A stretch of 64,000 bases of DNA from assembly GCA_030835135.1 (NCBI GenBank), contig JAUQWO010000006.1, positions 1-64,000 of the forward strand, written 5' to 3'. The notes beneath the pieces were generated by a model. That model was not told the origin of the DNA. It was given only the letters and a program-made list of their open reading frames with translations, and searched no databases. The first letter of the stretch is position 1. Every line of letters starts with the position of its first letter. Origin of the DNA: Bacteroidota bacterium (GTDB taxonomy: Bacteria; Bacteroidota; Ignavibacteria; UBA10030; UBA6906). This document shows, in pieces, positions 34,226-49,970 of this stretch. The position numbers and the translations under genes were made by a program.

Positions 34226-35677
34226 TCAGCGCACCGTACCGCCGAACGTGTAGCCGATCGAGCCGTTCACATTCGGCCCGGTGACGTTGATCACGATGTT
34301 CACCGGAGTCGGATCGGTGATGCTCCACGTGCCGTCCTTCAGGATGAACGTGAAATCCGTGGTCCCCGGACCCGAGAAGATCACATCCGGCAACTTCACG
34401 GAACCATTGGACCCGAAGATGGTGGTGACCTGGTTCTGCTGGATCCCTTCCGACGGTGGCGGTGGGATCAGCGCCGACACCGAGATGATCGTCCCCTCGG
34501 CAAGCGGATGCCCGAGCTCGTCGGACACGCGGAAGGAGAATGTCTGCGAGCCGCCGTTCGCGACATCGAAGGTCGCGGGACTGATGTTGCTGATGACGCC
34601 ATGACCGCTCCAGAGGATGAGCGTGCTATCCTGGACGACCGTACCACCCTGTCCGAGCGTCCGCGCAACCACATAGTGGTACCCATCGCCGTACACCGGC
34701 GCAGCGAATGTACTGTACGGGGAAGGATTGCCGCTATACAGGTTCACCGTACCGAATCCGTTCTTATCCGTGAACACGGACGGCTGCACGACGCCGGCGC
34801 TGCTGCGGAAGTAGACCGCGGTGCCGGGAGCCACCGGATTGCTGTACATGTCGCCGGCAAGGATCGTGATCGGCTGAACCTGTCCGAGCTCATGCAGTGC
34901 GGCAAAATTGTGCGCCACGGGAGCGATCGAGAAATGCGATTGCACCGGGAATCCGCCGTTGATGACCAGGCGGACCGGGCTGGACGTGATCGTCCGCGAT
35001 CCCACGGTGGCCGAGGCGGTCACCTGCACGACCCCGGAACGCGTGCCCGCATTGAACGTGATGTGTGCCTGGCCTGCCGCGTTGGTCGTGACGGCATCCG
35101 GCGACACGTATTCACCTCCACCGGGCCCGTTGGTCGACGTGAATGTCAGCTTCACGGCATGCGCCGCATCGATCGCCAGCCCGAGGGAATCGCGCACCTC
35201 GAACGACAGGACCGACGTTTCCTTGCCACCGACGCCGTACACCGACACCTCCTGCGGACTCGAACCGAGGAACGCGATCGTCTGTGCCAGCCCGCTCGTG
35301 CTGCCGGTCCCCGGCGAGACCACCGACTTCGGCGTCATGCTCAATTGCAGGACGAGCACGGAACCTGCCCGCAGCGACACGGTGAAGGTCGTATCGCGGT
35401 ACCCGGTCTTCCGCAGGGTCACCGCGGCGGTCGCGATGCTGTCGGTCGAGAAGGATGCGCGGAAACTCCCGTTGGCATCCGTGGTGGTCGACACCGACCC
35501 GGCCGACACACTCTGTGCGGTCACCGCGACGTCCGCAAGGACTGCGAGAGTCGCCGCATCAGACACGATGCCGTTCAACACCCCCTCGCCCTGCGACGCC
35601 GTCGTGTTGTCTTCCTTGCAGCCGCCGAACAGCAACACGCCCACTGTCAACACGGCTATGATCCAGATTCGTGACAT
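34226..35677 (-). CDS. Ig-like (Big_1/invasin-type) surface lipoprotein
   Basis: A 483-residue lipoprotein with lipobox LLFGGC (Cys near residue 20). A carboxypeptidase-regulatory-like domain (GVLNGIVSDAATLAVLADVAVTAQ) comes first. At least two bacterial Ig-like (Big_1 type) domains follow, marked by FEVRDSLGLAIDAAHAVKLTFTSTNG with AVTTNAAGQAHITFNAGT, and by ILAGDMYSNPVAPGTAVYFRSSAG with VFTDKNGFGTVNLYSGNP. A further beta-domain closes the protein. It starts 46 bp after the secretin stop with AGGA 6 nt before its ATG, and is the last gene of the pilus-like operon. A surface adhesin or pilus-tip or secretin-associated role is inferred from position only. Confidence 0.75.
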   Translation of the reverse strand: MSRIWIIAVLTVGVLLFGGCKEDNTTASQGEGVLNGIVSDAATLAVLADVAVTAQSVSAGSVSTTTDANGSFRASFSTDSIATAAVTLRKTGYRDTTFTVSLRAGSVLVLQLSMTPKSVVSPGTGSTSGLAQTIAFLGSSPQEVSVYGVGGKETSVLSFEVRDSLGLAIDAAHAVKLTFTSTNGPGGGEYVSPDAVTTNAAGQAHITFNAGTRSGVVQVTASATVGSRTITSSPVRLVINGGFPVQSHFSIAPVAHNFAALHELGQVQPITILAGDMYSNPVAPGTAVYFRSSAGVVQPSVFTDKNGFGTVNLYSGNPSPYSTFAAPVYGDGYHYVVARTLGQGGTVVQDSTLILWSGHGVISNISPATFDVANGGSQTFSFRVSDELGHPLAEGTIISVSALIPPPPSEGIQQNQVTTIFGSNGSVKLPDVIFSGPGTTDFTFILKDGTWSITDPTPVNIVINVTGPNVNGSIGYTFGGTVR

Positions 35678-35723
35678 CGACGTTCCTCTCACACTTGTGA
35701 CACTTCAGTGCTCACTGCACGTG

Positions 35724-36962
35724 TTATTTCGTACCGCGCACGGACCGGTCCTTGCCCATCATATCCTGGCGCCAGCGGCCGATGAGATCATCCTCGCGGG
35801 TCCGCTGGGTGATGCGTTCCTGCAGGGTCGGCACCAGCTCCGCCTTCAGGAGGATCACCAGTTCCTTCTTCACGACTTCATCCTTGTCGTACCCGAACAG
35901 ATACCGCAGGCCGAGCACGTACCAGGGCAGGTCCTTCAGGAATGGCAGACCCGTCCGCACGGTGTTCGACTCATTGTTATACAATCCGCCGATCAGCGTT
36001 TCCTCACCGTCCAGGAGGAGCAGATTGGTCTGCGCCTGGGTCTTGTTGATGATCGTGCTCACCGCACCCGGGGTCACCGAACTGCGCTCGACATCCACAC
36101 GCACGTGGATGAACGGCACGCCCTGTTCCACGATCACCTGCGGCTGGACCTTGATGATCGTGCCCGCACTGTAGAACTTGTCGATCAGGTTGCCCGCGAA
36201 ATCCCGCTCACGGATCGAGAAATCCTGACCCACCTGAATGCGCCCCTCTTCACCGGAGCGCACGATCAGCTGGGGACCGGAGAGGATCTCGCCGAGCTTA
36301 TAGTCCGAGAAGAACTTGGCCACGAAGTTCATGTTCGCGAACTTCACCTTCGGGGTCACCTCGGTCTTGAAGATCGCATTGCTGACGTTGTCGGCGCCGT
36401 TGAATTCCGCGCCGATGGCCACATCGGACGTGCTCTTCATGAACGACCAGTTCAGGCCGACCTCATCCAGACGGCTCAGGTTCACCTCGAAGAACACCGC
36501 CGACAGTTTGATCTCACGGCTGCGGAAGGTCGCGAGTTCTTTCTGGATCTCCGTCACCACCGTGCCCGACTGCACCGGCCGGCCCTCACCGACGGGTCCC
36601 AGGGTGCTTTCGCCCGTGGTGCCCGACGTGATCTGGATGTAGCTTTCATACTCGGAGAACGCGAGGCTGTTCTTCCGGCAGATCGTCTCCAGCGCCTCAC
36701 GCCACGGGAACCCCTGGATGTCCACGTTGATCGGCATCGAACGGCGTTCGGTGTCGATGATGATCTTGCCCGTGGTCTTCTTGCTGACCTCGCTGATGAT
36801 CGACAGGGCCTTGTCCAGTGTCGTGGACGGGGCGATGGACACCAGTTCCGCCGGTGGCGTATAGTCGCGCGTGATCTTGCGCTCGGCCTGTGACTGCCCG
36901 TCGGCTGCCGTCCCCACGAGACACACCAGGGCGACAACTGCTACCACGAATGATGCTTTCAT
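35724..36962 (-). CDS. short PilQ/GspD-type secretin
   Basis: A 412-residue outer-membrane secretin (PilQ is usually over 600). After a signal peptide (GTAADGQSQ) comes a short N-domain resembling the STN/secretin N-module (LVSIAPSTTLDKALSIISEVSKKTTGKIIID with MPINVDIQGFPWREALETI). The secretin core ends in LLLLDGEETLIGGLYNNES and LPFLKDLPWYVLGLRYLFG, then VKKELVILLKAELV. AMIN domains and additional N-domains are absent. It forms the outer-membrane pore of a type IV pilus or type II-like machine. It starts 7 bp after the PilO-PilP gene stop and has a GAGGAG site before ATG 36962. Confidence 0.85.
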   Translation of the reverse strand: MKASFVVAVVALVCLVGTAADGQSQAERKITRDYTPPAELVSIAPSTTLDKALSIISEVSKKTTGKIIIDTERRSMPINVDIQGFPWREALETICRKNSLAFSEYESYIQITSGTTGESTLGPVGEGRPVQSGTVVTEIQKELATFRSREIKLSAVFFEVNLSRLDEVGLNWSFMKSTSDVAIGAEFNGADNVSNAIFKTEVTPKVKFANMNFVAKFFSDYKLGEILSGPQLIVRSGEEGRIQVGQDFSIRERDFAGNLIDKFYSAGTIIKVQPQVIVEQGVPFIHVRVDVERSSVTPGAVSTIINKTQAQTNLLLLDGEETLIGGLYNNESNTVRTGLPFLKDLPWYVLGLRYLFGYDKDEVVKKELVILLKAELVPTLQERITQRTREDDLIGRWRQDMMGKDRSVRGTK

Positions 36963-36969
36963 GCTCTCC

Positions 36970-37878
36970 TCACCGTTTAGTCTGACCATTGACTTTCGCC
37001 TGCGGACCATAGCGGATCACCATCTCCACCTTCTCGATGATGCCGCCCTTGTTCAACGTGCATTCCACACGCCCACCCTCGGGGTCGACGCGCGTCACGT
37101 AGCCCAGATACACCTCATCACCCTCGTTGATCGTTCTGATCGTGTTGTTCTGGTCCAGCACGAATGCCTTGCCGGGGATCACCGCCTTGAGTTCCGAACG
37201 CTGGACCTCCACGAGATCATGGATGTTCGGCGGGATGCCGGATGCGATGACCGGCGTGAACGGATCCACCGTCAGTGCGTTCGGCGTGAGCGACCGTTCG
37301 CCGAGGGAACTCGACAGTTCGGAGACCGATGAGAAATACGCATGCACGGTCATATCGAAGGTCACCAGGACCTGACCGAGTTCGTGCTCCGCATCGGGGG
37401 CCACTTCCACACCCTTCATGGTGATGGAGTGGATCTTGTACAGACGGCGGTCGTTCTCCAGATACCAGATGAACCGGTAGAGGTTATCGAACGGCGCTTC
37501 CCCACGCAGTCCGTACGTGTTGTACCCGTAGTTCGCGAGCATGGTCGTTCCGGTATAGACCATGTTGAGCTTCACCTCGCCGCTGAGATCGATCAGGTGG
37601 CTGAAGTAGGCATAGCTCTGTGAACTGACATCCGCGGGCGGGATATCCTTGTTGCGGCCATCCCACCGCTTCTGGGTATCGTTCAGCACCGCACTCAGGT
37701 CATTGAACTGGTTGACCAGGTTCGGGGTGTTCTGCAGTTCCTCATCGATCTTGGCGACCTCGGCCTCGAGGGCCTTGATCTTCTTCGGCAGATGGAACGC
37801 ACGAATGTACGTGCCGACCGAGAGGATCAGGAACAGCAGGATCCCGAGGGCGATGCTATTGCGTAATTTATATGACAC
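36970..37878 (-). CDS. PilO-PilP-like fusion protein
   Basis: A 302-residue inner-membrane protein. A transmembrane helix near residue 10 (ALGILLFLILSVGTYIRAF) is followed by a coiled-coil (PKKIKALEAEVAKIDEEL) and a ferredoxin-like region as in PilO. The C-terminal 80 residues (VIPGKAFVLDQNNTIRTINEGDEVYLGYVTRVDPEGGRVE) look like the PilP beta-sandwich that contacts the secretin. In most systems PilO and PilP are separate. The gene begins at GTG 37878 with AGGAG about 7 nt upstream; no ATG lies close in frame. It sits between the PilM-PilN fusion and the secretin, exactly the pilMNOPQ order. Confidence 0.78.
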   Translation of the reverse strand: MSYKLRNSIALGILLFLILSVGTYIRAFHLPKKIKALEAEVAKIDEELQNTPNLVNQFNDLSAVLNDTQKRWDGRNKDIPPADVSSQSYAYFSHLIDLSGEVKLNMVYTGTTMLANYGYNTYGLRGEAPFDNLYRFIWYLENDRRLYKIHSITMKGVEVAPDAEHELGQVLVTFDMTVHAYFSSVSELSSSLGERSLTPNALTVDPFTPVIASGIPPNIHDLVEVQRSELKAVIPGKAFVLDQNNTIRTINEGDEVYLGYVTRVDPEGGRVECTLNKGGIIEKVEMVIRYGPQAKVNGQTKR

Positions 37879-37903
37879 GGCCTCTCTCCTTTCCTCGTGA
37901 TAG

Positions 37904-39466
37904 CTACTGTCCCACCGCCGACGACGACGGTACCTTGATCCGGTACTTGTACACCGTCTGTTCCCGGATCTCCTGCACGCTGACCTCCTCGAGGAGGGCG
38001 TTGTCAAAGAGCGTCGCCAGACGCGGGATCCGCGTGCGGTAGGTCGTGAATCCATTCATCATGAGATCGGCATCCTTGCCGGCCGTCATGTCCGTGAGCC
38101 AGATCGCGTTCATATCCTCAACGCCGTGGCTCAGCTGCGTCAGGACCTTGCTCCACCGTTCGCTGCCCGGCACAAGACTGTCATACAACGCCATGGAGGT
38201 CTTGTAGCGCGTCAGCTGGTCTTCCAGCGCCTGGATCGAGTTCGCCAGCGTGAGGTTCTCCGCTTTCTGGCTCTCCTTCAGGACCAGCACATCGCTGAGT
38301 TCCTTGATCTCCCTCGACTTCGACGTGATGGACCACGTGAAGAAGAAGGTCATGGCGAACAGCGCCAGCAACAGCGCATAGCCATGCCAGGCCAGTTTGA
38401 ACACACGCTGTCCTTCACGGACCGACGCCGGGAGGACATTGACATGGTAGATGGCCGAACTGCCCGGGTCCAGCACCTGCATGGCGGCACCGATCGGGAC
38501 CGCGAATTCCGACAGCGCCTCCTGCTGCTCGGGGCTGAGACCGCTCGCATCCAGCCGGGGCATGCTCAGATACTCGATCTCCTGGTCCGGCAACTGCTGG
38601 GAGAGGAAATCCCGGAACCCGACCCGGTGGCACTCACCCGCAAGGATGATGCGCCGGATGTGCGGAATGGCCAGATTGTCCTGCTCCAGGAGCAGACGCG
38701 AATACACCGTGTTCTGCAGGTTCGGGGAATCGTACCCCTCGCCGATGATCGGGGCGAACTGATGGAAATGCGCGCCGCGCATGAAGATCAGACGCGTGAA
38801 TTCGGTGCCTACATAGATCACGACCGTGACGTCCTGCTCTTCGAACTCATAGTTCGCACGGACCACGTTCATCATCGACACGTCCGCGCTGGTCACGCCG
38901 GAAATGAGCGGCAGGCGGTTCCCGATGTACCCCTTGATGTTCTCCAGGGCGTTGATCAGACTGAGCCCGTCCTCACGGACGATGCAGAGCAGGTTCCCTT
39001 CATCGGTCTTGATCGCATCGACCGCGTCGGACGCCGGCTGAAACGCGCGCGTCGAACGGAGTTCCGTCAGGATCCGGTCCTTCAGCCTCTTCCCCTTCAG
39101 GCCGAAATCGCTCTCGAGGATGTGGTAGTAGATCGAGGGCTCGGAGATGGCGTAGGTCAGCGAGTACTTGTGGCGGGGATAGTTCGCAATGAGACCCAGC
39201 AGCACCGCATTGTTGTCCTCGCTCGACTCGGGGGTCGTTTCCGGCACGGGCGCGTTCGCGAACGCGAACGCATCGTTCGGGTCCGTGATCGTCGCCGCCG
39301 CCTCCTCCACCAGCTTCCGGTCATGCAGCTTCTGCATGAGGGTCGCCGTCTTCAGCTCGTTGATCACGATATGCTTCCGTGACACGGAGAGGTGCGCGAG
39401 CTTGACATCCAGCCCGTCCACGAACAACCCGAGCACCGTCTTTCCTGTACCCATCACCGTGGCCAT
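37904..39466 (-). CDS. PilM-PilN-like fusion protein
   Basis: A 520-residue protein joining two pilus-assembly parts. Residues 1-340 form a PilM-like actin-fold ATPase (TVLGLFVDGLDVKLAHLS; YVGTEFTRLIFMRGAHFHQF; RIILAGECHRVGFRDFL). A transmembrane helix at about 367-385 (YALLLALFAMTFFFTWSI) follows, then a PilN-like coiled-coil and periplasmic part (SREIKELSDVLVLKESQKAENLTLA ... TRYKTSMALYDSLVPG). The normal pair is cytoplasmic PilM bound to the N-terminus of PilN. The fusion places PilM at the membrane permanently, but here PilM precedes the PilN helix. The PilT gene ends 39 bp upstream. Confidence 0.82.
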   Translation of the reverse strand: MATVMGTGKTVLGLFVDGLDVKLAHLSVSRKHIVINELKTATLMQKLHDRKLVEEAAATITDPNDAFAFANAPVPETTPESSEDNNAVLLGLIANYPRHKYSLTYAISEPSIYYHILESDFGLKGKRLKDRILTELRSTRAFQPASDAVDAIKTDEGNLLCIVREDGLSLINALENIKGYIGNRLPLISGVTSADVSMMNVVRANYEFEEQDVTVVIYVGTEFTRLIFMRGAHFHQFAPIIGEGYDSPNLQNTVYSRLLLEQDNLAIPHIRRIILAGECHRVGFRDFLSQQLPDQEIEYLSMPRLDASGLSPEQQEALSEFAVPIGAAMQVLDPGSSAIYHVNVLPASVREGQRVFKLAWHGYALLLALFAMTFFFTWSITSKSREIKELSDVLVLKESQKAENLTLANSIQALEDQLTRYKTSMALYDSLVPGSERWSKVLTQLSHGVEDMNAIWLTDMTAGKDADLMMNGFTTYRTRIPRLATLFDNALLEEVSVQEIREQTVYKYRIKVPSSSAVGQ

Positions 39467-39505: not shown

Positions 39506-40738
39506 TTATTCCGCGGTCGGGGACATATTCAACAATTGCTGGAAGCGCCGCTTGTTGTTCGCTGCCACCATGGCGTTGTCCAGCGAGATCTTCTTGTTCG
39601 TATATAACCGCTTCAGGTCCTGCTCCAGCGTGATCATCCCGATGTCGCCCGACTCGGCCATCATCTGGTAGATCTCGCCCGTGTTGTTGTTCTTGATCGC
39701 GGCCCGGACCGACGGGATCATGACGAGCACCTCTTTTGCCAGAACGAGTTTCCCCTCCAGGCTCGGTACCAGCTTCTGCGACATCACGCAACTCAGCGTG
39801 TCGGCCAGACGGATACGCACACGCTCCTGTTCGATCGGCGGCACCTCGCCAATGATACGGTCGATGGTCTCGACCGCCGACGCCGTATGCAGCGTCGAAA
39901 ACACCTTGTGGCCGGAGTCCGTGATCTCCAGCGCTGTCATGATGGTGTCCGGATCCCTCATCTCACCGATCGTGATGATGTCCGGGTCCTGCCGCAGGGC
40001 CTGGATGGCCCCATCCTTGAACGACAGCACATCACGGCCCACCTCACGGTGACGGATGATGCAGCGGTCAGGCGTGTGCACGTACTCCACAGGCGACGCA
40101 ATGATCACGATGTGGCCATCCACCGTGTGATTGTTCGCATCGATGATGCTGTCCAGCGTGGTGCTCTTGCCGGAGCCGGTGATTCCGGTGATCAACGTCA
40201 ATCCCTGCGTCGTGTGCGCCAGACTCAGCACCCGCGTCACGTTCGGGTGGAATTCCAGGGCCTTGTACGGGCGGATCACATTGTTGATCGCGCGCATGTT
40301 CATGGCCAGATGGTCCAGGTCGAAACAGACGTTGCACCGGAACCGGAACATCCTGTCGTCCTCGATCACGCTGTACGAGAGGTCCAGGTTGCGGTTCTCG
40401 TACAGGAACAGACGCTGCCGCTCGATGAGCACGCTCTGAATCAGCACACTGCATTCGTCCAGGGTGAATGTGCCCAGCTCCTTGGCCGGCCGCTTTTCGC
40501 CGTAGATGCGGTACCAGATGTATTTGGATGTGCCATACCCCCCCAGGTCGATGTCGGAGGCGTTGATCCTCGACATCCGCATGAGGAGGCTGTCCATGAG
40601 CTTCCGGAGCGCACTGCGTTCTGCAGGCGACTGGCGTGACACCAGGTCGCCAATGAGCATTTGACGTTCCATTCCCGGAGCGGTGTCCGGGACATTCGCT
40701 GCGATCTCCTGCAACATGCGTACAGCTGTTTCGATCAT
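39506..40738 (-). CDS. PilT-family retraction-type ATPase with altered Asp box
   Basis: A 410-residue hexameric motor ATPase. Walker A GITGSGKST (185-193), Walker B IITIGEMRD with E259, and His box STLHTAS (H284) are intact. The Asp box, normally IEDPIE, is here IIASPVEY (A214, S215 in place of Glu-Asp), so the acidic pair is lost. The N-terminus is about 60 residues longer than a standard PilT and lacks any recognised extra domain. It lies just after a strong terminator and before the PilM-PilN gene, so it starts a second transcription unit. ATG 40738 has GGAG 8 nt upstream. Its fit to PilT versus PilU is not settled. Confidence 0.88.
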   Translation of the reverse strand: MIETAVRMLQEIAANVPDTAPGMERQMLIGDLVSRQSPAERSALRKLMDSLLMRMSRINASDIDLGGYGTSKYIWYRIYGEKRPAKELGTFTLDECSVLIQSVLIERQRLFLYENRNLDLSYSVIEDDRMFRFRCNVCFDLDHLAMNMRAINNVIRPYKALEFHPNVTRVLSLAHTTQGLTLITGITGSGKSTTLDSIIDANNHTVDGHIVIIASPVEYVHTPDRCIIRHREVGRDVLSFKDGAIQALRQDPDIITIGEMRDPDTIMTALEITDSGHKVFSTLHTASAVETIDRIIGEVPPIEQERVRIRLADTLSCVMSQKLVPSLEGKLVLAKEVLVMIPSVRAAIKNNNTGEIYQMMAESGDIGMITLEQDLKRLYTNKKISLDNAMVAANNKRRFQQLLNMSPTAE

Positions 40739-40801
40739 TACAGCCACTCCCCGTAGTTCTGCACAATTGACAAACTCAATAGACGTGCCACAGATCACAC
40801 C

Positions 40802-40884: not shown

Positions 40885-42135
40885 CTATTCGTACCACGCA
40901 AGGATCTCGTAGGCTTTCGTTGTAGGAAAGTACGGCGGGGCTGAGGTGCGAAACCGCTCGTCAAACCGCAGATTCACCTTCAATCCCTTGGTGATCGAGG
41001 AGTTCGTTGTCGCATAGATATCATTCACGGTCCACCCACCATAGGTGTACAGCGTACCGAGGTTCCGCGTTGCCAGATTCTCCACCTCGATGGAGGCAGC
41101 ATAGCTGAAGAGCGCCGCCATGACCGTGAAATTCGGCCCGTGTCCGGTGGCCGTATTGTCCGCGATCGTGATCTTCTGATTGGCCACGATCCCGAGCATG
41201 TCGGTGGAGGCGGGGTTCGTCCGGGGATCCGAGTTGTACGTGATGTTGTCGTCGATGACGACCTGTCCGCGTGAGGTGCTCTGGGTGTCGATCGCCCCGA
41301 TCGTGAACCGGCCTTTGACGGTCCCTTTCACATGCAACTTGCCGCTACTGTTGTTGAGGACGATGGCCCCGTTCGGTGCAAGGGCTGTCGCCAGCACGGT
41401 CGTATCGGGCCCTGCGGGGCCACGCTTATAGGTGATGGAATCACCTTTGAAGTGCAGATACAGGTCGTCGTTCCCGGTGAAACTCTTCCCCCCCGCCGAT
41501 GCCTTTTCACGGAGTTTGGAATAGTCCCGGTTCAGCGGAATACTTACGCCGGTCTCGACCCCCGCATTGAAGATCGGGTGCCCGCTCCACGACGTGCTGT
41601 CCACGTTGTTCTTGCACGTAGCCTTGCCCCCGAAGTACGGATACCCGTGGGTCCGCAGGGTCCCCTCCACGTGTGTCGGCCCGAAAATGGAGTCGTACGT
41701 TGCCCAGTACACGGCCGAGCCGGCTGCCCCGGCGTACATCGCAAATTTCGCGAAATTGCTCGGGCGCAGGATCGCGATCACCGTCGCCGTACTGTCACGG
41801 AAGGTCGCCACGGACCGCAGCGTCAACCGCCGATCACCCGTCAGAGGGTCCACACTGGTCGTGGAATCCACCGTCACCACGAACGACCCGCCGTTGAACT
41901 GCACGGGCGTGGTGTATCCGTTGAACCAGGCATTGCCATTGATGAGCGGGGGATACAGGAAGATGTAGTTTGCCGCCATGTTGGCGCCGGAGATCGCGAT
42001 GTTCCGCGCCGTCTCCTGGTCGTAATAGGTGATGGCATTGTCATAGGCCTGCACGCTGATGTCCGACATGAGCAGTCCGCTCATCAGGAGAAGCGCACTG
42101 TAGCCCATCACAAGTATGAGAGAGGCTTTGCCCAT
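40885..42135 (-). CDS. large MG-start minor-pilin-like protein (PilX/DUF4900-like)
   Basis: A 416-residue protein that begins MGKASLILVMGYSALLLMSGLLM, split here, so Met-Gly is followed by a hydrophobic helix. The rest is a beta-rich extracellular domain with SFVVTVDSTTSVDPLTGDRRLTLRSVATF, several Gly/Asn-rich strands and a Cys-poor core. The layout resembles the PilX-N/DUF4900 class of large minor pilins, but similarity is weak and from impression only. It is the last gene before the internal terminator and follows two smaller MG-start genes (spacings 13 and 21 bp). A pilus-tip or priming role is inferred. Confidence 0.65.
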   Translation of the reverse strand: MGKASLILVMGYSALLLMSGLLMSDISVQAYDNAITYYDQETARNIAISGANMAANYIFLYPPLINGNAWFNGYTTPVQFNGGSFVVTVDSTTSVDPLTGDRRLTLRSVATFRDSTATVIAILRPSNFAKFAMYAGAAGSAVYWATYDSIFGPTHVEGTLRTHGYPYFGGKATCKNNVDSTSWSGHPIFNAGVETGVSIPLNRDYSKLREKASAGGKSFTGNDDLYLHFKGDSITYKRGPAGPDTTVLATALAPNGAIVLNNSSGKLHVKGTVKGRFTIGAIDTQSTSRGQVVIDDNITYNSDPRTNPASTDMLGIVANQKITIADNTATGHGPNFTVMAALFSYAASIEVENLATRNLGTLYTYGGWTVNDIYATTNSSITKGLKVNLRFDERFRTSAPPYFPTTKAYEILAWYE

Positions 42136-42148
42136 CGCTCATGTTCCC

Positions 42149-42793
42149 CTAGCGGTTTCGGTAATTGCGGGATGACAACCGGAGTTGCTGCCAGAACGCT
42201 GATGAATACTGCGTATTGATCGGCGCCGTCTCCACGAGTTCGCCGGCAACGACATTCTCCACGATCAGGGAGATCTGGATCGTCTGGATCCGTTGAAGAT
42301 TCGCCGCGGTCACGGGGACGCCGAGTTCGTTCCCCTGGCCATCGTAATAGCGGAACTTGAACGAGGTCACGCCGAGATTGGAGCCCTTCGCGGCATCATT
42401 GTTCACGACCCGGTACAGCAGCCGGTCGCGCGGGTTCATGGTCCCCGCAAGCTCCGAGGTCGGGCCGAGATAATAGTAGATACTGTCCACCACACCGTCC
42501 GGCCCGGCCCCGGTCAGATTCACGTCCGTCAGGAACTTCAACCGCATGCTGTCCGCAAGGATGATCGCCCGCGTCGGATCGGGAATATTGTTCGGCTCCA
42601 TGCAGAAACCGATCTTCCGGAAATCATACTCCAGGAGGCGTGTCACTTCCACGAGGTTCTCCTGCACCAGAAGTTCCCCCCCGTAGGTCTGCATGTTCTC
42701 GGAATTCGCCACGCTGATGCGTATCGACGTGAGGAGGAGCCACCCGAAGAGAACGATGGAACCGATGAGATCGATGATGACCTGGGAACCCAT
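42149..42793 (-). CDS. MG-start minor-pilin-like protein, 214 residues
   Basis: A 214-residue protein starting MGSQVIIDLIGSIVLFGWLLL, that is Met-Gly and then a long hydrophobic helix, with no classical prepilin leader and no Glu at position 5 after the Gly. An amphipathic helix (SENMQTYGGELLVQENLVEVTRLLEYDF) and a beta-rich end (FKFRYYDGQGNELGVPVTAANLQRIQTIQISLIVE) follow, the pattern of PilW/minor pseudopilins. It sits between two other MG-start genes. The assignment as a minor pilin is based on topology and context. Confidence 0.65.
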   Translation of the reverse strand: MGSQVIIDLIGSIVLFGWLLLTSIRISVANSENMQTYGGELLVQENLVEVTRLLEYDFRKIGFCMEPNNIPDPTRAIILADSMRLKFLTDVNLTGAGPDGVVDSIYYYLGPTSELAGTMNPRDRLLYRVVNNDAAKGSNLGVTSFKFRYYDGQGNELGVPVTAANLQRIQTIQISLIVENVVAGELVETAPINTQYSSAFWQQLRLSSRNYRNR

Positions 42794-42814
42794 GGGCGAA
42801 CCCGCTCTCTGTGG

Positions 42815-43318
42815 CTATCGGAAATACCAGTAACTATAGACGGTCTGGAACGTCAACGTGTCGCGCATGAACGGGCTCGACACCCACACCCGGAGACGCT
42901 TATGATAGGTCCGGGATGCCGAGGTGACGACCGCATTCGATGAGATCGTGACATAATCCACGGAGTCCCGGATCAGATAGGTTGCCGACCGGAAATAGAC
43001 GCTGTCGCCGGTGATCGTCTTCGAGAACCCGTTATAGTCATCGAAATCGTCGAAGGTCGCTTCTGCCTCCGTACCTTCCTTCCCGAGCGTGGAGCTCAGC
43101 GACGAGACGCTGTTGACGTCGCTGGACACCGTTTTCTCGTCGAAAGCCTTCCCCAGGGCCTGCTCCATCTGGGAGACGCCGAGCGAACTCGCCATGATCA
43201 CGTACTCCGTGGTCTCCACCGACGATCCGCTGTCCAGGGTGGTGTTGTTCATCATCAGCAACACGCTCCCCAGCAGCGCCATCGCCAGCACACTCAACAG
43301 CATTTGTCCAAGTCCCAT
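42815..43318 (-). CDS. MG-start minor-pilin-like protein, 167 residues
   Basis: A 167-residue protein starting MGLGQMLLSVLAMALLGSVLL. The anchor helix follows the initial Met-Gly directly. Next is a Ser/Thr/Asp-rich region and a C-terminal beta segment (RSATYLIRDSVDYVTISSNAVVT; RVWVSSPFMRDTLTFQT). No recognised domain. It starts only 3 bp after the PilB stop, so it is co-transcribed with pilB, and is followed 21 bp later by the 214-residue MG-start gene. The function is inferred as a minor pilin or pseudopilin. Confidence 0.62.
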   Translation of the reverse strand: MGLGQMLLSVLAMALLGSVLLMMNNTTLDSGSSVETTEYVIMASSLGVSQMEQALGKAFDEKTVSSDVNSVSSLSSTLGKEGTEAEATFDDFDDYNGFSKTITGDSVYFRSATYLIRDSVDYVTISSNAVVTSASRTYHKRLRVWVSSPFMRDTLTFQTVYSYWYFR

Positions 43319-43321
43319 GGC

Positions 43322-45115
43322 TCAGTCGTCCGTTGTCGCTGCTGCGATCTCTTCAAGTGTGGTCTGCCCGGCGATGATCCGCTCGATGCCCGACCGCCGG
43401 AGCGTCCACATCCCGTCTTTCATTGCCTGCTCGCGGATCTTGTCTTCATCGATATCGTTGCCCGACTTCGCGATCATCGCCCGGATCTCGCGCGAGAAGA
43501 ACAGCGCTTCGTGAATGGCGGCGCGCCCCTTGTAGCCGGAATTGCACCGTTCACACCCCTGGGCCTCGCAGATCGTGCCATTCTGAAGATCCGCCTCGGC
43601 GAACCCGAAGGACGTGTAGACGTCATGGTCGATCTCATTCGGCGCCAGCTGCTTCTTGCAATGCGGGCAGAGCGTCCGGACCAGTCGCTGCGCCACGATG
43701 ATGTTGATCGCATACGCGATCAGGAACGGCTCGATGCCCATCTTGTACAGACGGGAGACCGCGCTGGGCGCATCGTTGGTGTGCAGGGTCGAGAAGGTAA
43801 GGTGGCCCGTGTTCGCGAGCTTGATCGCGATCTCCGCCGTACTCTTGTCACGCATCTCACCCACAAGCACGATATCCGGGTCGTGACGCAGGATGCCGCG
43901 GATGGCCTGGTCGAAGTTCATCTTGGGGCCGATACGAAGCTGCCGCGCGCCCTTGATGATGTACTCCACCGGGTCCTCCACGGTCAGCACGTTCACCGTC
44001 GGATCGATCACCTGGTGCAAGGCCGCGATCAGCGTCGTACTCTTGCCGCTTCCTGTCGGACCGGTCAGAATGACGATCCCCTGGGGCTTGGCTATGGCCC
44101 TGTTGAAGAAGTCCTTCGCCGGACCCTGCAAACCGAGCTTGTTCAGGTCGGTGATGACCTTCCGGTCGTCCAGGACACGGATGACGATACTCTCGTACTT
44201 GTGCCGGAACTCGATCCCCACGATCGGCATGATGGACACGCGGAACCGGATCATGTGATCGTCGATCAGGCGCTGGATGAACCCGTCCTGCGACATCTCA
44301 CGTTCGAAGCGGTCGACGTTCTTGGAACGGTCTTTCACCACCGCGGCAACGGCCTCGGGCATCGTCTTCTCCTGCACGTGCCAGAGCTTCAGATTGCCGT
44401 CGTTCCGGAACCAGAATTCGGTCCGGTTCCCTTCCTTGGCGATGATATGAATATCGGACGATCCCTGGCGGACGGCCTCGACGAGGGCACCTTCCACCAG
44501 GTTGACGAGGGCGCTCTTGCTGATCTCGGCTTCGAGGGCCTCTTCATCGACCAGCGCATCGTCCTCTTCCTCCTTCACCTGGATCCCGACCTGGGAATCC
44601 TCGAGGAGCTTCAGGAACTCGTTCTCCGGCGGGATCACCTGCTCGAGCAGGCTCTGGAGGTCCTTCAGGCGGCAATACGCCACCTCATACTTCTTGGCCG
44701 CAAATTCGCGCGCGATGATCGGGATCCGCCGGTCCGTCGGGTCCGCGGAAATGATGATCAGCTTGTCCGGCTGCTTCTCATCGTACTTCAGGGGAAGCAT
44801 GCGCGACTGAACGACCATGTCACGGACGTTCTGCGCGAGACCGTCGACGAACTTCTTGATGAAGTCGATCCGGGTCCTGTCGATCACTTCATCGGCGAGG
44901 TAGATCTCCCGGAAGGCGTACAGGTCCGCGACCTCGCGGAACACGGCATCATGGTCGGCACCGAAGTCATTGACCAGGATCTGTCCGAGATTACGACGGT
45001 TCTTCTTGTCCTCAGAGTCTTTGACCCGCAGAGACTTTTCGAGCGTCTCGTAATCGATCACGCCCTTCTTGAGGAGGGCGAAACCGATCTTGTCCGTGAT
45101 ATCGATGGGCGGCAT
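43322..45115 (-). CDS. PilB/GspE-type assembly ATPase
   Basis: A 597-residue assembly motor. N-terminal MshEN/GspE_N-like region (FALLKKGVIDYETLEKSL, LGQILVNDFG). Walker A GPTGSGKST (352-360), Asp box TVEDPVEY (E380, D381), Walker B IVLVGEMRD (E420), His box STLHTND (H445), and zinc cysteines C483/C486 and C521/C524 are all intact, so it should be the active extension ATPase. Starts at ATG 45115, nine bases after the PilC gene stop. The N-terminus is acidic between residues 180 and 197, unlike a standard PilB. It is the intact paralogue of the degenerate copy at 47782-49590. Confidence 0.95.
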   Translation of the reverse strand: MPPIDITDKIGFALLKKGVIDYETLEKSLRVKDSEDKKNRRNLGQILVNDFGADHDAVFREVADLYAFREIYLADEVIDRTRIDFIKKFVDGLAQNVRDMVVQSRMLPLKYDEKQPDKLIIISADPTDRRIPIIAREFAAKKYEVAYCRLKDLQSLLEQVIPPENEFLKLLEDSQVGIQVKEEEDDALVDEEALEAEISKSALVNLVEGALVEAVRQGSSDIHIIAKEGNRTEFWFRNDGNLKLWHVQEKTMPEAVAAVVKDRSKNVDRFEREMSQDGFIQRLIDDHMIRFRVSIMPIVGIEFRHKYESIVIRVLDDRKVITDLNKLGLQGPAKDFFNRAIAKPQGIVILTGPTGSGKSTTLIAALHQVIDPTVNVLTVEDPVEYIIKGARQLRIGPKMNFDQAIRGILRHDPDIVLVGEMRDKSTAEIAIKLANTGHLTFSTLHTNDAPSAVSRLYKMGIEPFLIAYAINIIVAQRLVRTLCPHCKKQLAPNEIDHDVYTSFGFAEADLQNGTICEAQGCERCNSGYKGRAAIHEALFFSREIRAMIAKSGNDIDEDKIREQAMKDGMWTLRRSGIERIIAGQTTLEEIAAATTDD

Positions 45116-45124
45116 GGGCTTCTG

Positions 45125-46504
45125 TTATGTTAACGGGCGATCCACATGCAATTCGAATACCTGTCCGGCCGCGGGGTTCTTCGGCCTGATCGTAGCGGTC
45201 TCGGACGACACGATCGTCAGCGCCGTCAACACGATCATGATGATCATCGAGATCCAGAGCTGGATGAACTCGATGACGTTCTTCATCTTGTACGTCGTCT
45301 CTTTCTCGTAGTACTCCGCAAGTTGCAGCGCCGTGGTCTTGACCGTGCCGGTCTCCGCGCCGGAGTGGAAGCGGGAGACGGCGGTCTTCGTGAACACCCC
45401 GGTGGCTTCGAACGCCTCGGTGATACCGGCGCCCTTCTGGACCATGAGGGGGATCGCGATCGCCTTGATGCGCGCTTCCATGTACTTGTTGCCGCACGCC
45501 TCGGCGGCCATGCGGATGACCTCGATGTTCTCGCCCGAGCCGCTGTACAGGGCGTAGAAGACGCGGCAGAAGATCTCGATGGAGGTCTTATGCAGGAGCT
45601 GACCGATGACCGGGATGCTCCAGATGTACTGATCGCGCAACAGACGGCCCTTCTCGGTGGAGAGCCAGCGGACGAACAGCACCGTCGGGATCGTGAAGCC
45701 CAGGATGAGCCACAGCATGTTGGAGACCAGGAAGTCCGAGATCTGCAATGTCGTCTTGGTCATCGGCGGCAGATCGATCTTGAACTTCACGAACAGCTTG
45801 GCGGTGGCCGGGAAGATGTATCCGACATAGTAGATCACTGCACCGAACAGGACGGCGAGGGTGATGAGGGGCGTGATCAGGGCACTCTTCAGGTTCTTCT
45901 TGAATTCCGTCTGGCGCTCGAGGAACTTGGCGGTGCTCTCATAGATCTCGGCCATATTACCGCTCTTGGAGGCCAGCCCCAGCATGTGAGCGGCGAAGCG
46001 CCCGAGCACGGCCTCGTGCTTCACGAAGGCCTTCTCACTGTCGCGCCCCTGCTTCAATTCGATGTTGATGTCCTTGATCGCCTCGCGGAGGGTCCTGTTC
46101 TCGATGTCGTTGATCAGGAGCGCGAGGATCTCGTTGAACGGCAGCTTCTGCCGGATCAGGTCGGCGCTGACGCGCACGAACGTGACGATCTCCGTGGACG
46201 GCGGTTTGGCCTTGAATTCGAAGAGGCGTTTCTGCACGCTGATGACGCGGTAGCCCATCTTCGTGAGCGCTTCTTCGACCTCGGCGCGGGTGAAGGCCTT
46301 CTGTTCGCCCATGACGGGCTTCTCCGCACCGCGTTGGACCTTGTACATCCAGGTGGAGCGCGGGATCACATGGAGAAGTTTGAACTTGCGCGCCGTGGCA
46401 AGCTGTCCTGCCTTCTGTTTGGCGGACCGGATCGACTCCGCCTCGAGCAGACCCTGCACCGGCTTCCCGGCAAGCGTGATACCCTCTATCCTGAATTCTG
46501 GCAT
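45125..46504 (-). CDS. PilC/GspF-type inner-membrane platform protein
   Basis: A 459-residue platform protein. An N-terminal segment of about 100 residues (residues RIEGITLAGKPVQGLLEAES) precedes two GspF domains with FVRVSADLIRQKLPFNEILALL and IFCRVFYALYSGSGENIEVIRMAAEA, and hydrophobic helices at about 215 (LITLAVLFGAVIYYVGYIF), 275 and 420. It couples PilB to pilin extraction. ATG 46504 follows AGGTGG by 6 nt. The PilB gene begins 9 bp after its stop. An upstream GTG in frame would add three residues. Confidence 0.92.
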   Translation of the reverse strand: MPEFRIEGITLAGKPVQGLLEAESIRSAKQKAGQLATARKFKLLHVIPRSTWMYKVQRGAEKPVMGEQKAFTRAEVEEALTKMGYRVISVQKRLFEFKAKPPSTEIVTFVRVSADLIRQKLPFNEILALLINDIENRTLREAIKDINIELKQGRDSEKAFVKHEAVLGRFAAHMLGLASKSGNMAEIYESTAKFLERQTEFKKNLKSALITPLITLAVLFGAVIYYVGYIFPATAKLFVKFKIDLPPMTKTTLQISDFLVSNMLWLILGFTIPTVLFVRWLSTEKGRLLRDQYIWSIPVIGQLLHKTSIEIFCRVFYALYSGSGENIEVIRMAAEACGNKYMEARIKAIAIPLMVQKGAGITEAFEATGVFTKTAVSRFHSGAETGTVKTTALQLAEYYEKETTYKMKNVIEFIQLWISMIIMIVLTALTIVSSETATIRPKNPAAGQVFELHVDRPLT

Positions 46505-46658
46505 GCGTGCCACCTGTCAGTGTAATGAACTTCGTAAACGCGAAAAGGCACCTCTCCCTGGCGCTGATCTGTCGTCTCCCGGCTCCCACTCTCTGCCCTG
46601 GTGCCGACCACGTTTGGAAAAGGACCTCACCAACCCCAGCGGTTCTCCGTGCAGCCCG

Positions 46659-47045
46659 CTAGTTCAATTCCGAGACAAGGATCGAATCGGCACGCACCTG
46701 AACGGCCACCTTCACCGGATGGGCGCGATCATACCCGATCTCGATCCCGACGCCCTCGATCGTCACCTGGGTGCCGGTCGCGCCGGACACCGTGAACGAC
46801 CCGTTCTGATTCGCATCGGCTGTCGAGGTGAGAGTGAATCCCACAAAGGAATTGCCGCCACCACCGAGACACCGGGGCTTCTTCTGGTACACCTGCGCCT
46901 TCGAGGCATAGGCGGTCAGGTCATTGGCAATGGCATCACGATTGGCAGCAGCGGCACCGTCACCGAACATGATGACCCCGATGGAGATCATCAGTCCGAT
47001 CATCAGCACCCCTACTATCAGCAACAACATCTGCTGACTGCCCAT
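46659..47045 (-). CDS. MG-start pilin-like protein (second)
   Basis: A 128-residue small protein starting MGSQQMLLLIVGVLMIGLMI, a Met-Gly followed at once by a hydrophobic helix. Next is the shared block ANRDAIANDLTAYASKAQVY and a glycine-rich bend (CLGGGGNSF), then beta strands ending VRADSILVSELN. It is clearly paralogous to the 136-residue protein one gene upstream (shared ANRDA.xNDL, LGGGGN, VTIEGVGxE). It resembles a major pilin in size but lacks the standard leader and Glu5. There is no assignment to a known pilin family with confidence. Confidence 0.7.
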   Translation of the reverse strand: MGSQQMLLLIVGVLMIGLMISIGVIMFGDGAAAANRDAIANDLTAYASKAQVYQKKPRCLGGGGNSFVGFTLTSTADANQNGSFTVSGATGTQVTIEGVGIEIGYDRAHPVKVAVQVRADSILVSELN

Positions 47046-47096
47046 CGCTCGCCTGCTCCGTTAGTTCAGTGAACAACCACACCGTGAAGGAACATT

Positions 47097-47125
47097 GCAG
47101 GGGGGCCCCGACCGGGGCCCCCTGC
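47097..47125 (-). other. GC-rich hairpin between the two pilin-like genes
   Basis: A near-perfect stem of about 12 bp (one bulged G) around a short loop lies in the 90-bp gap after the first pilin-like gene. It has no T-run. Its position suggests a 3' stabiliser or a partial terminator that gives more of the first pilin than of the downstream genes. Confidence 0.5.
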
Positions 47126-47135
47126 GGGCACATCG

Positions 47136-47546
47136 TTAGTGCACGATCACGACGCTATCCGACCGCGTATTCGACACATGGATCTCCATGGTCACGTAGT
47201 TGGTCCCATCCACCATTTCCGTACCGACGCCCTGGAGCACCACACCCGTGGCATTACCGGCCGACGTGATGGAGTACGTGCCGTTGGCATTGGTTTCACG
47301 GTTCGTCAGCTTGCGCAGACCGGCGGCATCAGCAGTCAGGCCGGTGAAGTTGTTGCCACCACCACCGAGGGCTGTCGGGCGACGATAGAACTGCTGCGCA
47401 CGGGCCGCAAGGTTGACCAGGTCATTCGTGACCGCATCACGGTTCGCGCTGATCGCGTTGTCCGTGAACATCGTGATACCAACCGCCACTGCGATACCGA
47501 CAACGATGACGCCGAGGATGATCAGAAGAAGCTGCTGCTGTCCCAT
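47136..47546 (-). CDS. MG-start pilin-like protein (first; possible major pilin)
   Basis: A 136-residue protein beginning MGQQQLLLIILGVIVVGIAV, so the Gly-2 is followed by three Gln and a 20-residue hydrophobic helix. A helix with ANRDAVTNDLVNLAARAQQFY and a bend LGGGGNNF follow, then a beta domain ending VTMEIHVSNTRSDSVVIVH. It is first of the two small pilin-like genes and has a good AAGGAG site. It may be the major subunit. No Glu5 and no processed leader of the usual length are present, so processing, if it occurs, would be after Gly-2. Family membership is not established. Confidence 0.72.
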   Translation of the reverse strand: MGQQQLLLIILGVIVVGIAVAVGITMFTDNAISANRDAVTNDLVNLAARAQQFYRRPTALGGGGNNFTGLTADAAGLRKLTNRETNANGTYSITSAGNATGVVLQGVGTEMVDGTNYVTMEIHVSNTRSDSVVIVH

Positions 47547-47781: not shown

Positions 47782-49590
47782 TCACACGGTGAATGCAAGG
47801 AGTTCCTCGACCGTTGTCGAGCCCGCGACGAACAGATCCTGCGCCTGCCGCGACATGGTGACCAATCCGCCCACCTCCGCTGCCGCCTCGATCTGAGAGT
47901 CATCCGCATGCCCCGCTTCCTGCACGAGTACGTGCCGTACCTCCTGCGTCATCGCGAATGCCTCGTAGAGCATCCATCGACTGCTATACCCTCCCTTGCA
48001 ATCGATGCACCCCACCGCACGGTAGGTCACCGGCGGTTCCACCTTCACCCGCAATCGTTCGAGCTGCTCCATCTGCAGATTCTCGGGGTACGGCTTGCGG
48101 CACCGCGGACACAACAAGCGCAGCGACTGCTGGGCGACGATCCCCGTGACGGCTTCGGATGCGCGGAATGGAGACCCACACAGATCGATCAGATGCGTGA
48201 GTGCCTTGGCTGCACTCCGGACCGGGAGGGTAGCAAGGACCATGTGGCCGATATTGGCCAACCGCACCGCGATCTCCGCCCTGCCCGGCGTCGTAAGATC
48301 ACCGAGCATGATGATGTCAGGGTCGTGATCGGTGATGATCGCTAACGCGTCATCGGCGCTCAGCCGTGGATTCAATTTGACCTGCCGGGCTCCGTCGATG
48401 ATGAACTGCGTGCGGTCCTGGATGACGAGCGCGTTCACGGCATTCTTTATCAACGCACGGAGCACTGCAACCTGTGTTGATGCCGCGCCGTCACGTGCAC
48501 TCCCGGCGAAGACCAACAACCCATGCGACGCCGCCATCGCGTTGCGGATCACGCGGTCCACATGCGGGTCACACCCGAGGCCGTCGAGACCGGGGAGGAT
48601 GTTCGCATCGCGGAAGATGCGCAGCACGATCGACTCGAAGCGCGATTGACTGTCGCGCGTCAGGAGTGGCAGCACGGAGACCGCGATGCGCACCGGAACA
48701 TTCTCCACCGTGCGTTCGATCGTCCCCTGCTGCGCGGCCTGCCGTTCGTACCGGTCGATCCCGATCGACCGCTCCTTCAGCGCTGTCGCGACCGCTTCGC
48801 ACCGGACATCATCGATCGATGCCCAGAGGGCGAGATGGCCATCGAGACGGAACATGACCTCGGTCTTCCGCGAACCGCGCGGCGTGATGTGCACCTCCGA
48901 AGCGTTCGAGCGGATCGCATCGAGGATCACGTTGTCGATCTGCACGTTGATCTTCGCGCGCGCGATCTCCCGGTCCATCAGCGACTCGAAGTCACCTTCC
49001 GAGACCTTGGCGGCCGCGGTCGCGGCCGGATCGGCAGTGTCCTTGGCATTGCTGGAGGAGACCTGACGCCAGTACTCGGCCCATTCAGCCTCCTTCATGT
49101 AGCAGATCTCGAACCGCTTATACGGAAAAACCCTTGCAAATTCATGTATTTCGCGGTCTGCCGGGTTCGGCGTGACGAGCACGACCTTGTCGGGCTGGTT
49201 CTCCGCGATGTCAAACGGGAGGAGCTTCAGCTTGAGCAGCTGCTGGAAGGTCGCCTCCGGCAGGCTCCGCACGATCTTGTGCACGTCAGAGAGCAGGAGC
49301 CGGCGCACGCTCCTGTCGAGCAGCGTGACGGTGCGGAACGCATAGTATTGGGCCACGGCCTGGCGCAGCGGATCGGCGGGAACATTCAGGACCTGTTCGA
49401 GGATCTCAACGAGTCCGCGCTTGTCCTTCTCGTTCTTCCGTTTCCACTCGGTGGCATCGACCGCATGCTGCTTGCTGATGACGCCGCTGCGCGCGAGGTG
49501 CTCGAGCAGGGACGTCAGCGGTGGCGCTGCACCGGCAGGCGCCGATCGCGGGACCGGCGCATTTTCTACCGTCTCGAACGGAGCGTCCAT
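47782..49590 (-). CDS. degenerate PilB/GspE-like protein, ATPase motifs lost
   Basis: A protein of about 602 residues collinear with the active PilB downstream, but with its catalytic motifs gone. Walker A, normally GPTGSGKST, is GSARDGAAST (Lys to Ala); Asp box VEDPVEY is IQDRTQF; Walker B GEMRD is GDLTT; His box STLHTND is ATLPVRS. The zinc pairs CPRC (about 494-497) and CIDC (about 528-531) are retained. It therefore cannot hydrolyse ATP like PilB and is more likely a regulator or an assembly subunit. ATG 49590 overlaps the REC stop by one base (TGATG); a GTG at 49593 overlaps by four. It is co-translated with the receiver protein. Confidence 0.85.
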   Translation of the reverse strand: MDAPFETVENAPVPRSAPAGAAPPLTSLLEHLARSGVISKQHAVDATEWKRKNEKDKRGLVEILEQVLNVPADPLRQAVAQYYAFRTVTLLDRSVRRLLLSDVHKIVRSLPEATFQQLLKLKLLPFDIAENQPDKVVLVTPNPADREIHEFARVFPYKRFEICYMKEAEWAEYWRQVSSSNAKDTADPAATAAAKVSEGDFESLMDREIARAKINVQIDNVILDAIRSNASEVHITPRGSRKTEVMFRLDGHLALWASIDDVRCEAVATALKERSIGIDRYERQAAQQGTIERTVENVPVRIAVSVLPLLTRDSQSRFESIVLRIFRDANILPGLDGLGCDPHVDRVIRNAMAASHGLLVFAGSARDGAASTQVAVLRALIKNAVNALVIQDRTQFIIDGARQVKLNPRLSADDALAIITDHDPDIIMLGDLTTPGRAEIAVRLANIGHMVLATLPVRSAAKALTHLIDLCGSPFRASEAVTGIVAQQSLRLLCPRCRKPYPENLQMEQLERLRVKVEPPVTYRAVGCIDCKGGYSSRWMLYEAFAMTQEVRHVLVQEAGHADDSQIEAAAEVGGLVTMSRQAQDLFVAGSTTVEELLAFTV

Positions 49591-49970
49591 CACTGCGCCT
49601 CGGGTTCGATCGTGCGGCGGAGCGAGTCGATCAATGTGAGGACCTTGTCGATCGGTGTGGTCTTGCTGAAAAAGAAATCACGGTCCGGATCCACGACGAG
49701 GTTGCGTGTGCTCTCGTCGTCGTACCCGGACATGAAGATGAAGGGGATGTCGGGAGCGTCCGTGAACTCGCGGACGTAGTCATGGAACCGGACGCCGTCG
49801 AGCGTCGGCATGAAGACGTCAGAGATGATCACATCGGCCTTGTCGAATTCAAGGGCCTCGCGCGCTTGTTTGCCATTCTCTGCAAGGAGGACCTCATAAC
49901 CCGAATCACGGAGAACTTCCCCCATGACATTGAGGTAGCCTCGTTCGTCGTCCACAAGCAGGATCTTCAT
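49590..49970 (-). CDS. single-domain response regulator (REC only)
   Basis: A 126-residue receiver with no output domain. Acid pocket VDDE near residues 6-9, phosphoacceptor Asp in DVIISDVFMP (about D51), Ser/Thr in FMSGYD and the conserved Lys in FFSKTT. It overlaps the degenerate PilB gene, so the two are probably made in fixed proportion. A standalone REC with a PilB-like partner suggests that phosphorylation gates pilus assembly. No cognate kinase is adjacent; the hybrid kinases elsewhere in the window are candidates. It is the first gene of the pilus-like cluster. No strong promoter was recognised in the 230 bp before it. Confidence 0.88.
   Translation of the reverse strand: MKILLVDDERGYLNVMGEVLRDSGYEVLLAENGKQAREALEFDKADVIISDVFMPTLDGVRFHDYVREFTDAPDIPFIFMSGYDDESTRNLVVDPDRDFFFSKTTPIDKVLTLIDSLRRTIEPEAQ

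Follow-up and report, generated by a model that had tools for sequence, protein, structure and literature searches.

The 64,000-nucleotide stretch analysed here (the window: positions 1 to 64,000 of contig JAUQWO010000006.1, assembly GCA_030835135.1, from a Bacteroidota bacterium of the Ignavibacteria) carries five open reading frames (ORFs) whose products begin with Met-Gly and pass straight into a hydrophobic helix. They lie within a run of pilus genes on the same strand that spans about 34.2 to 50.0 kb of the window, and we read them as the major and minor pilins of a type IV pilus:

47136..47546, minus strand: pilA1, putative leaderless major pilin, start MGQQQLLL, called from the ORF, its upstream stop, its relatives and a fold model
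46659..47045, minus strand: pilA2, second major-pilin paralogue, start MGSQQMLL, 42% identical to pilA1
42815..43318, minus strand: mg3, candidate minor pilin, start MGLGQMLL, its pilin role suggested by gene order and the N-terminal helix
42149..42793, minus strand: mg4, candidate minor pilin, start MGSQVIID, with a conserved Asp at the place of Glu5
40885..42135, minus strand: mg5, large ComZ-like candidate pilin with an inserted beta-solenoid, start MGKASLIL, called from an AlphaFold model, Foldseek and a match to ComZ

An earlier sequence-only reading had listed these five ORFs and their starts, and every coordinate was recovered as given. It had also proposed that no normal prepilin leader precedes them, and this is borne out by the reading frames. 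Each ATG is separated from the closest stop upstream in its frame by only 4 (pilA1), 5 (pilA2), 1 (mg3), 7 (mg4) or 1 (mg5) open codons, and in each ORF it is the earliest ATG, GTG or TTG after that stop. In a review, class III leaders range from 6 to 26 residues and end in Gly (PMC4471445); set against this range, the open codons exclude a leader for four of the ORFs and make one very unlikely for the fifth. An AAAGGAG motif stands seven bases before the pilA1 ATG. The shared Met-Gly start is, as far as the sequences tell, more than chance, because Gly2 occurs in only 25 of 814 (3.1%) other ORFs of at least 200 residues at the same loci, counted from the first possible start, and because the major pilin keeps the same kind of start throughout the phylum.

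This conservation is extensive. The phylum-search loci and the window together hold 105 homologue copies, 79 of them distinct, and in 79/79 a start codon (72 ATG, 5 GTG, 2 TTG) stands directly before GxQQ. Gly2, Gln4 and Gln5 are invariant among these, Leu8 is present in 77/79, and residues 1-24 are strongly conserved as a whole. Upstream, the open stretch is short, with a median of 4 codons; 54/79 have no more than 5 and 69/79 no more than 10. The wider set from both searches, 161 distinct major-pilin ORFs, gives the same picture, with ATG in 155, GTG in 3, TTG in 2 and ATA in 1, and with at most 5 open codons upstream in 102/160; L077 and L081, whose N-termini are not intact, were set aside. 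The ATA belongs to a pilA copy in L085 and L081 that reads AAA ATA GGA CAA CAA, with ATA at the place of the start codon. A Shine-Dalgarno-like motif precedes 119 of 158 major-pilin starts, compared with 542 of 7729 internal control positions.

The sequence-only reading would have fallen had homologues possessed upstream starts that add a normal leader. We considered such a hidden leader and rejected it: an in-frame upstream start exists in 3/79 ORFs of the phylum set (L009, L030 and L061, within 25, 67 and 53 open codons) and in 9/161 of the wider set, L085 among them, and no leader-like sequence common to these extensions was seen. The class III leader that marks the type IV filament superfamily (6-26 residues long, with Gly at its end) is thus not found in the Met-Gly major pilins; at the gene level, the leader is absent from the major pilins and, on the ORFs collected, from most of the minor ones.

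What these proteins would look like is indicated by structure prediction. The AlphaFold model of pilA1 (predicted local distance difference test score, pLDDT, 83.9) has a 53-residue helix at residues 3-55 followed by a four-stranded sheet, and the ten best VIA-align rows are all type IV pilins or pseudopilins. Full-length PAK pilin aligns with a root-mean-square deviation (rmsd) of 2.7 over 119 residues (model residues 4-136) and a Z of 9.0, a value barely above the level that the tool calls common. In that alignment the first pair is model residue 4 with chain residue 1, an offset of three, and the same offset is found in a profile match to Geobacter geopilin domain 1 (residues 9-48, E 0.0019). 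Neither Pfam nor NCBIfam places pilA1 above the cut-off of any pilin family; ComP_DUS matches 5 of 22 major-pilin members, with a best E of 8.7e-5. The major subunit is predicted, then, to have a type IV pilin fold with a long N-terminal helix.

The helix itself departs from the usual pattern. Glu5 within the hydrophobic stretch is described as almost invariable in bacterial type IV filament subunits in PMC4471445, and in 159/160 major pilins Leu8 occupies its place. Lys, Arg, Asp and Glu are absent from residues 1-24 in 160/160, and residues 25-44 have a mean of 2.7 acidic against 1.2 basic residues. Gly2 is invariant although removal of Met tolerates other small residues, so Gly2 may have a structural role or be modified.

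Among the minor pilins the start is more varied, with Gly2 at the first possible start in 12/31 mg3, 11/30 mg4 and 23/31 mg5 distinct ORFs (the 31 of mg3 include that of the window). Neither mg3 nor mg4 of the window scores above the cut-off of any Pfam or NCBIfam family. We take mg4 to be PilW/GspJ-like from its size and an LEYDFRKIG motif; it has no sequence match in the PDB, and one of 24 members has a single weak, unrelated Pfam match. That Glu5 is missing in all five proteins, as had been claimed, is literally true, but mg4 carries Asp8 at the equivalent place. An Asp stands there in 24/24 aligned relatives (as residue 8 in 10 rows, and in the other 14 as residue 6 counted from Met), in an alignment whose starts were picked by a rule that seeks an acidic residue. 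Six of the 30 distinct mg4 ORFs, with uncertain starts or fragmentary, stand outside this alignment; two of them, the second copies in L056 and L057, have no acidic residue near the start. An Asp at residue 6 becomes position 5 once Met is off, and 10 of the 14 rows that have it there carry Gly, Ala, Ser or Thr as the second residue. Methionine aminopeptidase accepts all four in that place. Since the Asp falls at position 5 after Met removal, mg4 of these 14 rows starts, by its sequence, where PilD would otherwise cut.

The mg5 model (pLDDT 86.7) shows a pilin domain with an inserted beta-solenoid, the arrangement that defines the ComZ type, and matches Thermus ComZ (6qvi) in Foldseek at E 2.3e-10 and a probability of 1.00; the structural alignment reaches Z 17.2 over 318 residues but with an rmsd of 10.5. 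As its closest match is the ComZ tip pilin, mg5 likely sits at the pilus tip. The solenoid also resembles ice-binding proteins, with Z about 12 to 14.5. It is possible, judging from the model, that it forms a ligand-binding face at the tip.

The other genes of the stretch supply most of a pilus machine:

49590..49970, minus strand: CheY-like response regulator (Response_reg, 5e-20), with a similar gene near the operon in 27/90 loci
47782..49593, minus strand: PilB paralogue without Walker A (T2SSE, 7.4e-50)
45125..46513, minus strand: PilC/GspF platform protein (Pfam T2SSF, 5.4e-31; GspF, 2.4e-42, below its cut-off)
43322..45115, minus strand: PilB assembly ATPase (Pfam T2SSE, 1.2e-99; TIGR02538 PilB, 1.5e-122, below its cut-off)
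39506..40798, minus strand: PilT retraction ATPase (TIGR01420, E 9e-94, 314.5 bits, 4.6 under the cut-off of 319.1)
37904..39466, minus strand: PilM-PilN fusion-like protein, the PilN part matched and the PilM part suggested by sequence order
36970..37905, minus strand: PilO-like protein (weak PilO match), a C-terminal PilP-like domain suggested by sequence order
35724..36962, minus strand: PilQ-like secretin (Pfam Secretin, 5.6e-26)
34226..35692, minus strand: lipoprotein-like protein with Big_1/invasin domains (Big_1, 1.6e-11), a cluster member in 11/90 loci

These neighbour counts refer to 90 loci, a few of which contain one contig twice. The assembly ATPase, retraction ATPase, platform protein and secretin are thus encoded together with the Met-Gly pilins. 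The traffic ATPase and polytopic platform that characterize the filament superfamily are present as PilB-type and PilC/GspF-type proteins, as are the PilT, PilN and secretin of type IVa pili. Walker A is found in 52/52 distinct PilT-type ORFs. The profile of 20 relatives of the PilM-PilN fusion-like protein matches PilN of 3jc8 (E 2.1e-5), and the Amuc_1101 PilM-like family matches at 2.5e-7 over residues 336-470 only. For the PilO-like protein a profile, likewise of 20 relatives, gives a weak match to PilO of 3jc8 (E 0.0036), and Pfam PilO is found in 2 of the 20 members. From these matches the machinery is recognisably that of a type IV pilus, with PilB, PilC, PilT, PilN and secretin, and more weakly PilO. 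The PilB paralogue is one of 7 among the 34 closest ORFs (the others being its relatives in L064, L065, L071, L073, L074 and L076) that lack G....GK[ST], and its missing Walker A suggests a pseudo-ATPase partner of PilB. The response regulator could possibly control the pilus. A deoxyhypusine synthase family protein lies near the operon (window 52023-53129; Pfam DS, E 7e-72).

Of 296 genomes sampled from the phylum, 101 have relatives of pilA1, in 61 of 140 genera. A scan of named genomes confirmed at least 408 relatives, of which 78 loci were kept, MGQQQLLL being one of its two patterns. Among the matches listed, named relatives are mostly Ignavibacteria and unclassified Bacteroidetes, with others in Kryptonia, Calditrichota, KSB1, LCP-89 and one Zixibacteria record; two Patescibacteria-type records and one Actinomycetota record, also among those listed, may be binning errors. 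A plasmid search with one distant pilin gave no match.

Most of the sampled genomes with the Met-Gly family have no detectable prepilin peptidase. PF01478 (Peptidase_A24) matches 38 of the 296 genomes. The sequence-only reading had suggested a search of relatives for PilD alongside the Met-Gly family; carried out, it leaves 90 of 101 Met-Gly-positive genomes without a detectable PF01478 match, and hence without the dedicated prepilin peptidase that marks the superfamily. Twelve of the 90 are single-contig genomes, one of which (G269) has a weak Met-Gly match only, at E 6e-4. A repeat search of 17 of the 90, with E allowed up to 10, gave 0.04 as the best match and none above the cut-off, while two control genomes known to have PF01478 gave 5e-14 and 1e-11. 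Bacterial PilD has an N-terminal domain, PF06750, that is complete in 6/296 genomes, all six PF01478-positive, and is absent from 5 of the 11 genomes with both the Met-Gly family and PilD. As a route to an alternative peptidase it gave weak partial matches only outside the PilD genomes, in a search that did not take in PF06847 and other archaeal types.

Where PilD does occur, it keeps other company. All 11 Met-Gly genomes with PilD have an N_methyl pilin (PF07963) 0.6-1.5 kb from it, compared with 2 of the other 90 (Fisher p 5e-13), and over all 296 genomes the Met-Gly family and PilD show no association either way (Fisher p 0.58). In 20 of the 45 genomes reached through named loci, N_methyl was found in 16/18 PilD-positive and 0/2 PilD-negative genomes. 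On these counts PilD follows the classical pilins and not the Met-Gly family. The source genome is itself an example, with two Peptidase_A24 matches, on contigs C8 and C31. On C8 a classical prepilin (its leader ending ...AGEAG, followed by FSLTELMIVLVIIG), PilD and a T2SSE ATPase stand in a row; on C31 a shortened PilD adjoins an ATPase similar to that on C8. Long proteins that we take to be YD/RHS-repeat-like adjoin the set of classical prepilin, PilD and T2SSE ATPase (L142:10693-18341, L143:7968-17346). A further observation is that G020, G036, G044 and other genomes of family f24 have Peptidase_A24 and neither a Met-Gly pilin nor an N_methyl match.

We consider it likely that the locus encodes a retractile type IV pilus whose pilins are translated almost mature and need no prepilin peptidase. 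We propose a model in which methionine aminopeptidase would take off Met and leave Gly as the N-terminus, while the neutral N-terminus and net-negative C-terminal flank would set the N-in orientation during insertion by the signal recognition particle and Sec. Because no charged leader anchors the helix in the membrane, PilB and PilC could pull it straight into the filament, from which PilT would retract it. Gln4-Gln5 and Leu8, at the place of Glu5, may pack the N-termini in the core, replacing N-methyl-Phe1 and Glu5, and the ComZ-like mg5 would cap the tip and bind a surface or DNA. The joint loss of leader, N-methylation and Glu5 is coherent, since both Glu5 and the methylated N-terminus have their role in the subunit after cleavage. 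With somewhat less assurance, we lean towards the broader view that pili of Bacteroidota/Ignavibacteria and neighbouring phyla are widely built from subunits that are born mature, without leader, peptidase, N-methylation or Glu5, and with a Gly-x-Gln-Gln cap as the substitute in the core.

Three earlier suggestions survive in altered form. No prepilin peptidase is present on the contig of the window, as had been noticed, but the genome holds the two matches just described. A single export and assembly route for the five proteins agrees with their shared operon with the pilus machinery, and less well with the minor pilins, among which Met-Gly is not universal. A distinct filament class is apt insofar as subunit maturation would differ and be independent of prepilin peptidase; given the type IV pilus-like machinery, the difference from known systems would lie there and not in the machine.

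Other explanations would return these proteins to familiar pathways. Met-Gly might be a minimal class III leader after which PilD still cuts, giving ordinary processed pilins. A Gly before the hydrophobic run recalls class III signals, Gly2 is invariant in the major pilin, and PilD genes do exist elsewhere in the source genome. We think this unlikely nonetheless: most Met-Gly genomes have no detectable PilD, the same-operon minor pilins are often without Gly2, and the PilD on C8 has its own classical prepilin and T2SSE ATPase beside it. The structural and profile alignments, in which helix slippage is possible, moreover put mature position 1 at residue 4, so that Gly2 would not be at -1. The short hydrophobic N-terminus, and the A-x-A-like residues 29-31 in part of the family, could instead suggest a class I signal peptide that signal peptidase removes, which would make the proteins periplasmic or secreted and not filament subunits. 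This we judge very improbable. Residues 1-24 have none of the basic residues of a class I n-region in 160/160 and are strongly conserved, residue 29, at the -3 place, is acidic in 78/160 (Asp in 70, Glu in 8), the model helix extends to residue 55, full-length PAK pilin aligns over residues 4-136, and the genes belong to a pilus operon.

It is also conceivable, though we hold it to be quite unlikely, that an unrecognised non-A24 protease takes the place of PilD and, ahead of assembly, removes between one and three residues, as far as Gln4 for instance. In the alignments, mature position 1 of the major pilin is preceded by two extra residues, Gly2 and Gln4-Gln5 are strictly conserved, and 5/90 loci (L091, L094, L095, L101 and L103) have an S41/CtpB-like peptidase gene close to the operon. 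In the remaining 85 loci, the window among them, no such gene was seen close by, and the five genomes that do have one all carry PilD. Other scanned conserved neighbours are not proteases (a tRNA synthetase, a tetratricopeptide repeat protein, a sigma-54 response regulator, a histidine kinase, a dehydrogenase and a sugar nucleotidyl transferase), two having no Pfam match and some small clusters lying outside the scan. In 14/24 mg4 rows, Met alone precedes the mature position.

Several observations weigh against translation of nearly mature pilins. The case for the filament, the mature N-terminus and the phenotype is built from genes and predicted folds. Alongside the modest Z of the PAK alignment, Foldseek alone finds no significant match for pilA1, none being below E 0.9 and PAK pilin ranking eighth at E 2.1. 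Shine-Dalgarno-like motifs are rarer at the first start of the minor pilins (10/31 mg3, 10/30 mg4, 22/31 mg5), and the choice of mg4 starts favours acidic residues. The conserved Gly2 is not accounted for by Met removal alone, and an unrelated protease could shorten the N-terminus by one to three residues. As the phylum query and the named-locus pattern share MGQQQLLL, homologues with other starts may be under-counted. The absence of PF01478 is absence at the sensitivity of a profile that detected 12 of 14 control genomes; weak partial PF06750 matches occur in G184, G263 and G223, and the two PilD-negative Met-Gly genomes with an N_methyl match are G074 and G175. PilD is present in 11/101 Met-Gly genomes, the source genome included, and in 18 of the 45 that came from named loci, a group that partly overlaps with the 296; in such genomes it could act on Met-Gly pilins.

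Were subunits born mature, prepilin processing would be an optional layer of the superfamily and not its core mechanism. A widespread bacterial system without prepilin peptidase would reveal the true purpose of leader and peptidase, and a filament of leaderless pilins would be a direct structural test of the rule of Glu5 and N-methylation. It would also account for seemingly incomplete pilus gene sets in these bacteria, which look incomplete because searches for the N_methyl signal and PilD miss leaderless systems. Melioribacter roseus may be such a case. The genome paper on the type strain reports pilB, pilC, pilT and pilQ, but no pilA or pilD (PMC3534657), as a leaderless, PilD-free pilus would explain; a metagenome assembly recorded as this species (L129, G335) has a Met-Gly pilin and no PilD match. 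The order is not without classical pilins, since PMC7399161 lists an Ignavibacteriales genome among those with Geobacter-like pilins.

A literature search, with preprints and most subscription journals outside its scope, found no paper on a leaderless pilin, MGQQQLL or a PilD-independent pilus. In PMC4471445, the biogenesis of type IV filaments begins with prepilin processing, and a dedicated prepilin peptidase is counted among the conserved proteins. MSH pilus loci also lack a prepilin peptidase, but their genomes are said by Denise et al. 2019 (PMC6668835) to encode one in type II secretion, type IVa pilus or Tad systems, whereas most sampled Met-Gly genomes have no detectable one at all. 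The Nanoarchaeota type IV filament genes described in PMC4471445 belong, unlike the present system, to an archaeal lineage. Geobacter geopilin domain 1 and other solved type IV pilins are linked to pilA1 by the profile match, but sequence similarity is weak and the Met-Gly major pilin has Leu8 at the place of Glu5. Thermus ComZ, the competence pilin, is matched by the mg5 model, while mg5 starts M(F)G[RK] without a leader and has a solenoid also like that of ice-binding proteins. From the type IVa pilus the system differs in that its major pilin has neither a class III leader nor Glu5 and that, in 90/101 genomes, there is no detectable peptidase; the two have in common PilB, PilC, PilT, PilN, the secretin, by a weak match a PilO-like protein, the predicted pilin fold and minor pilins encoded in the operon.

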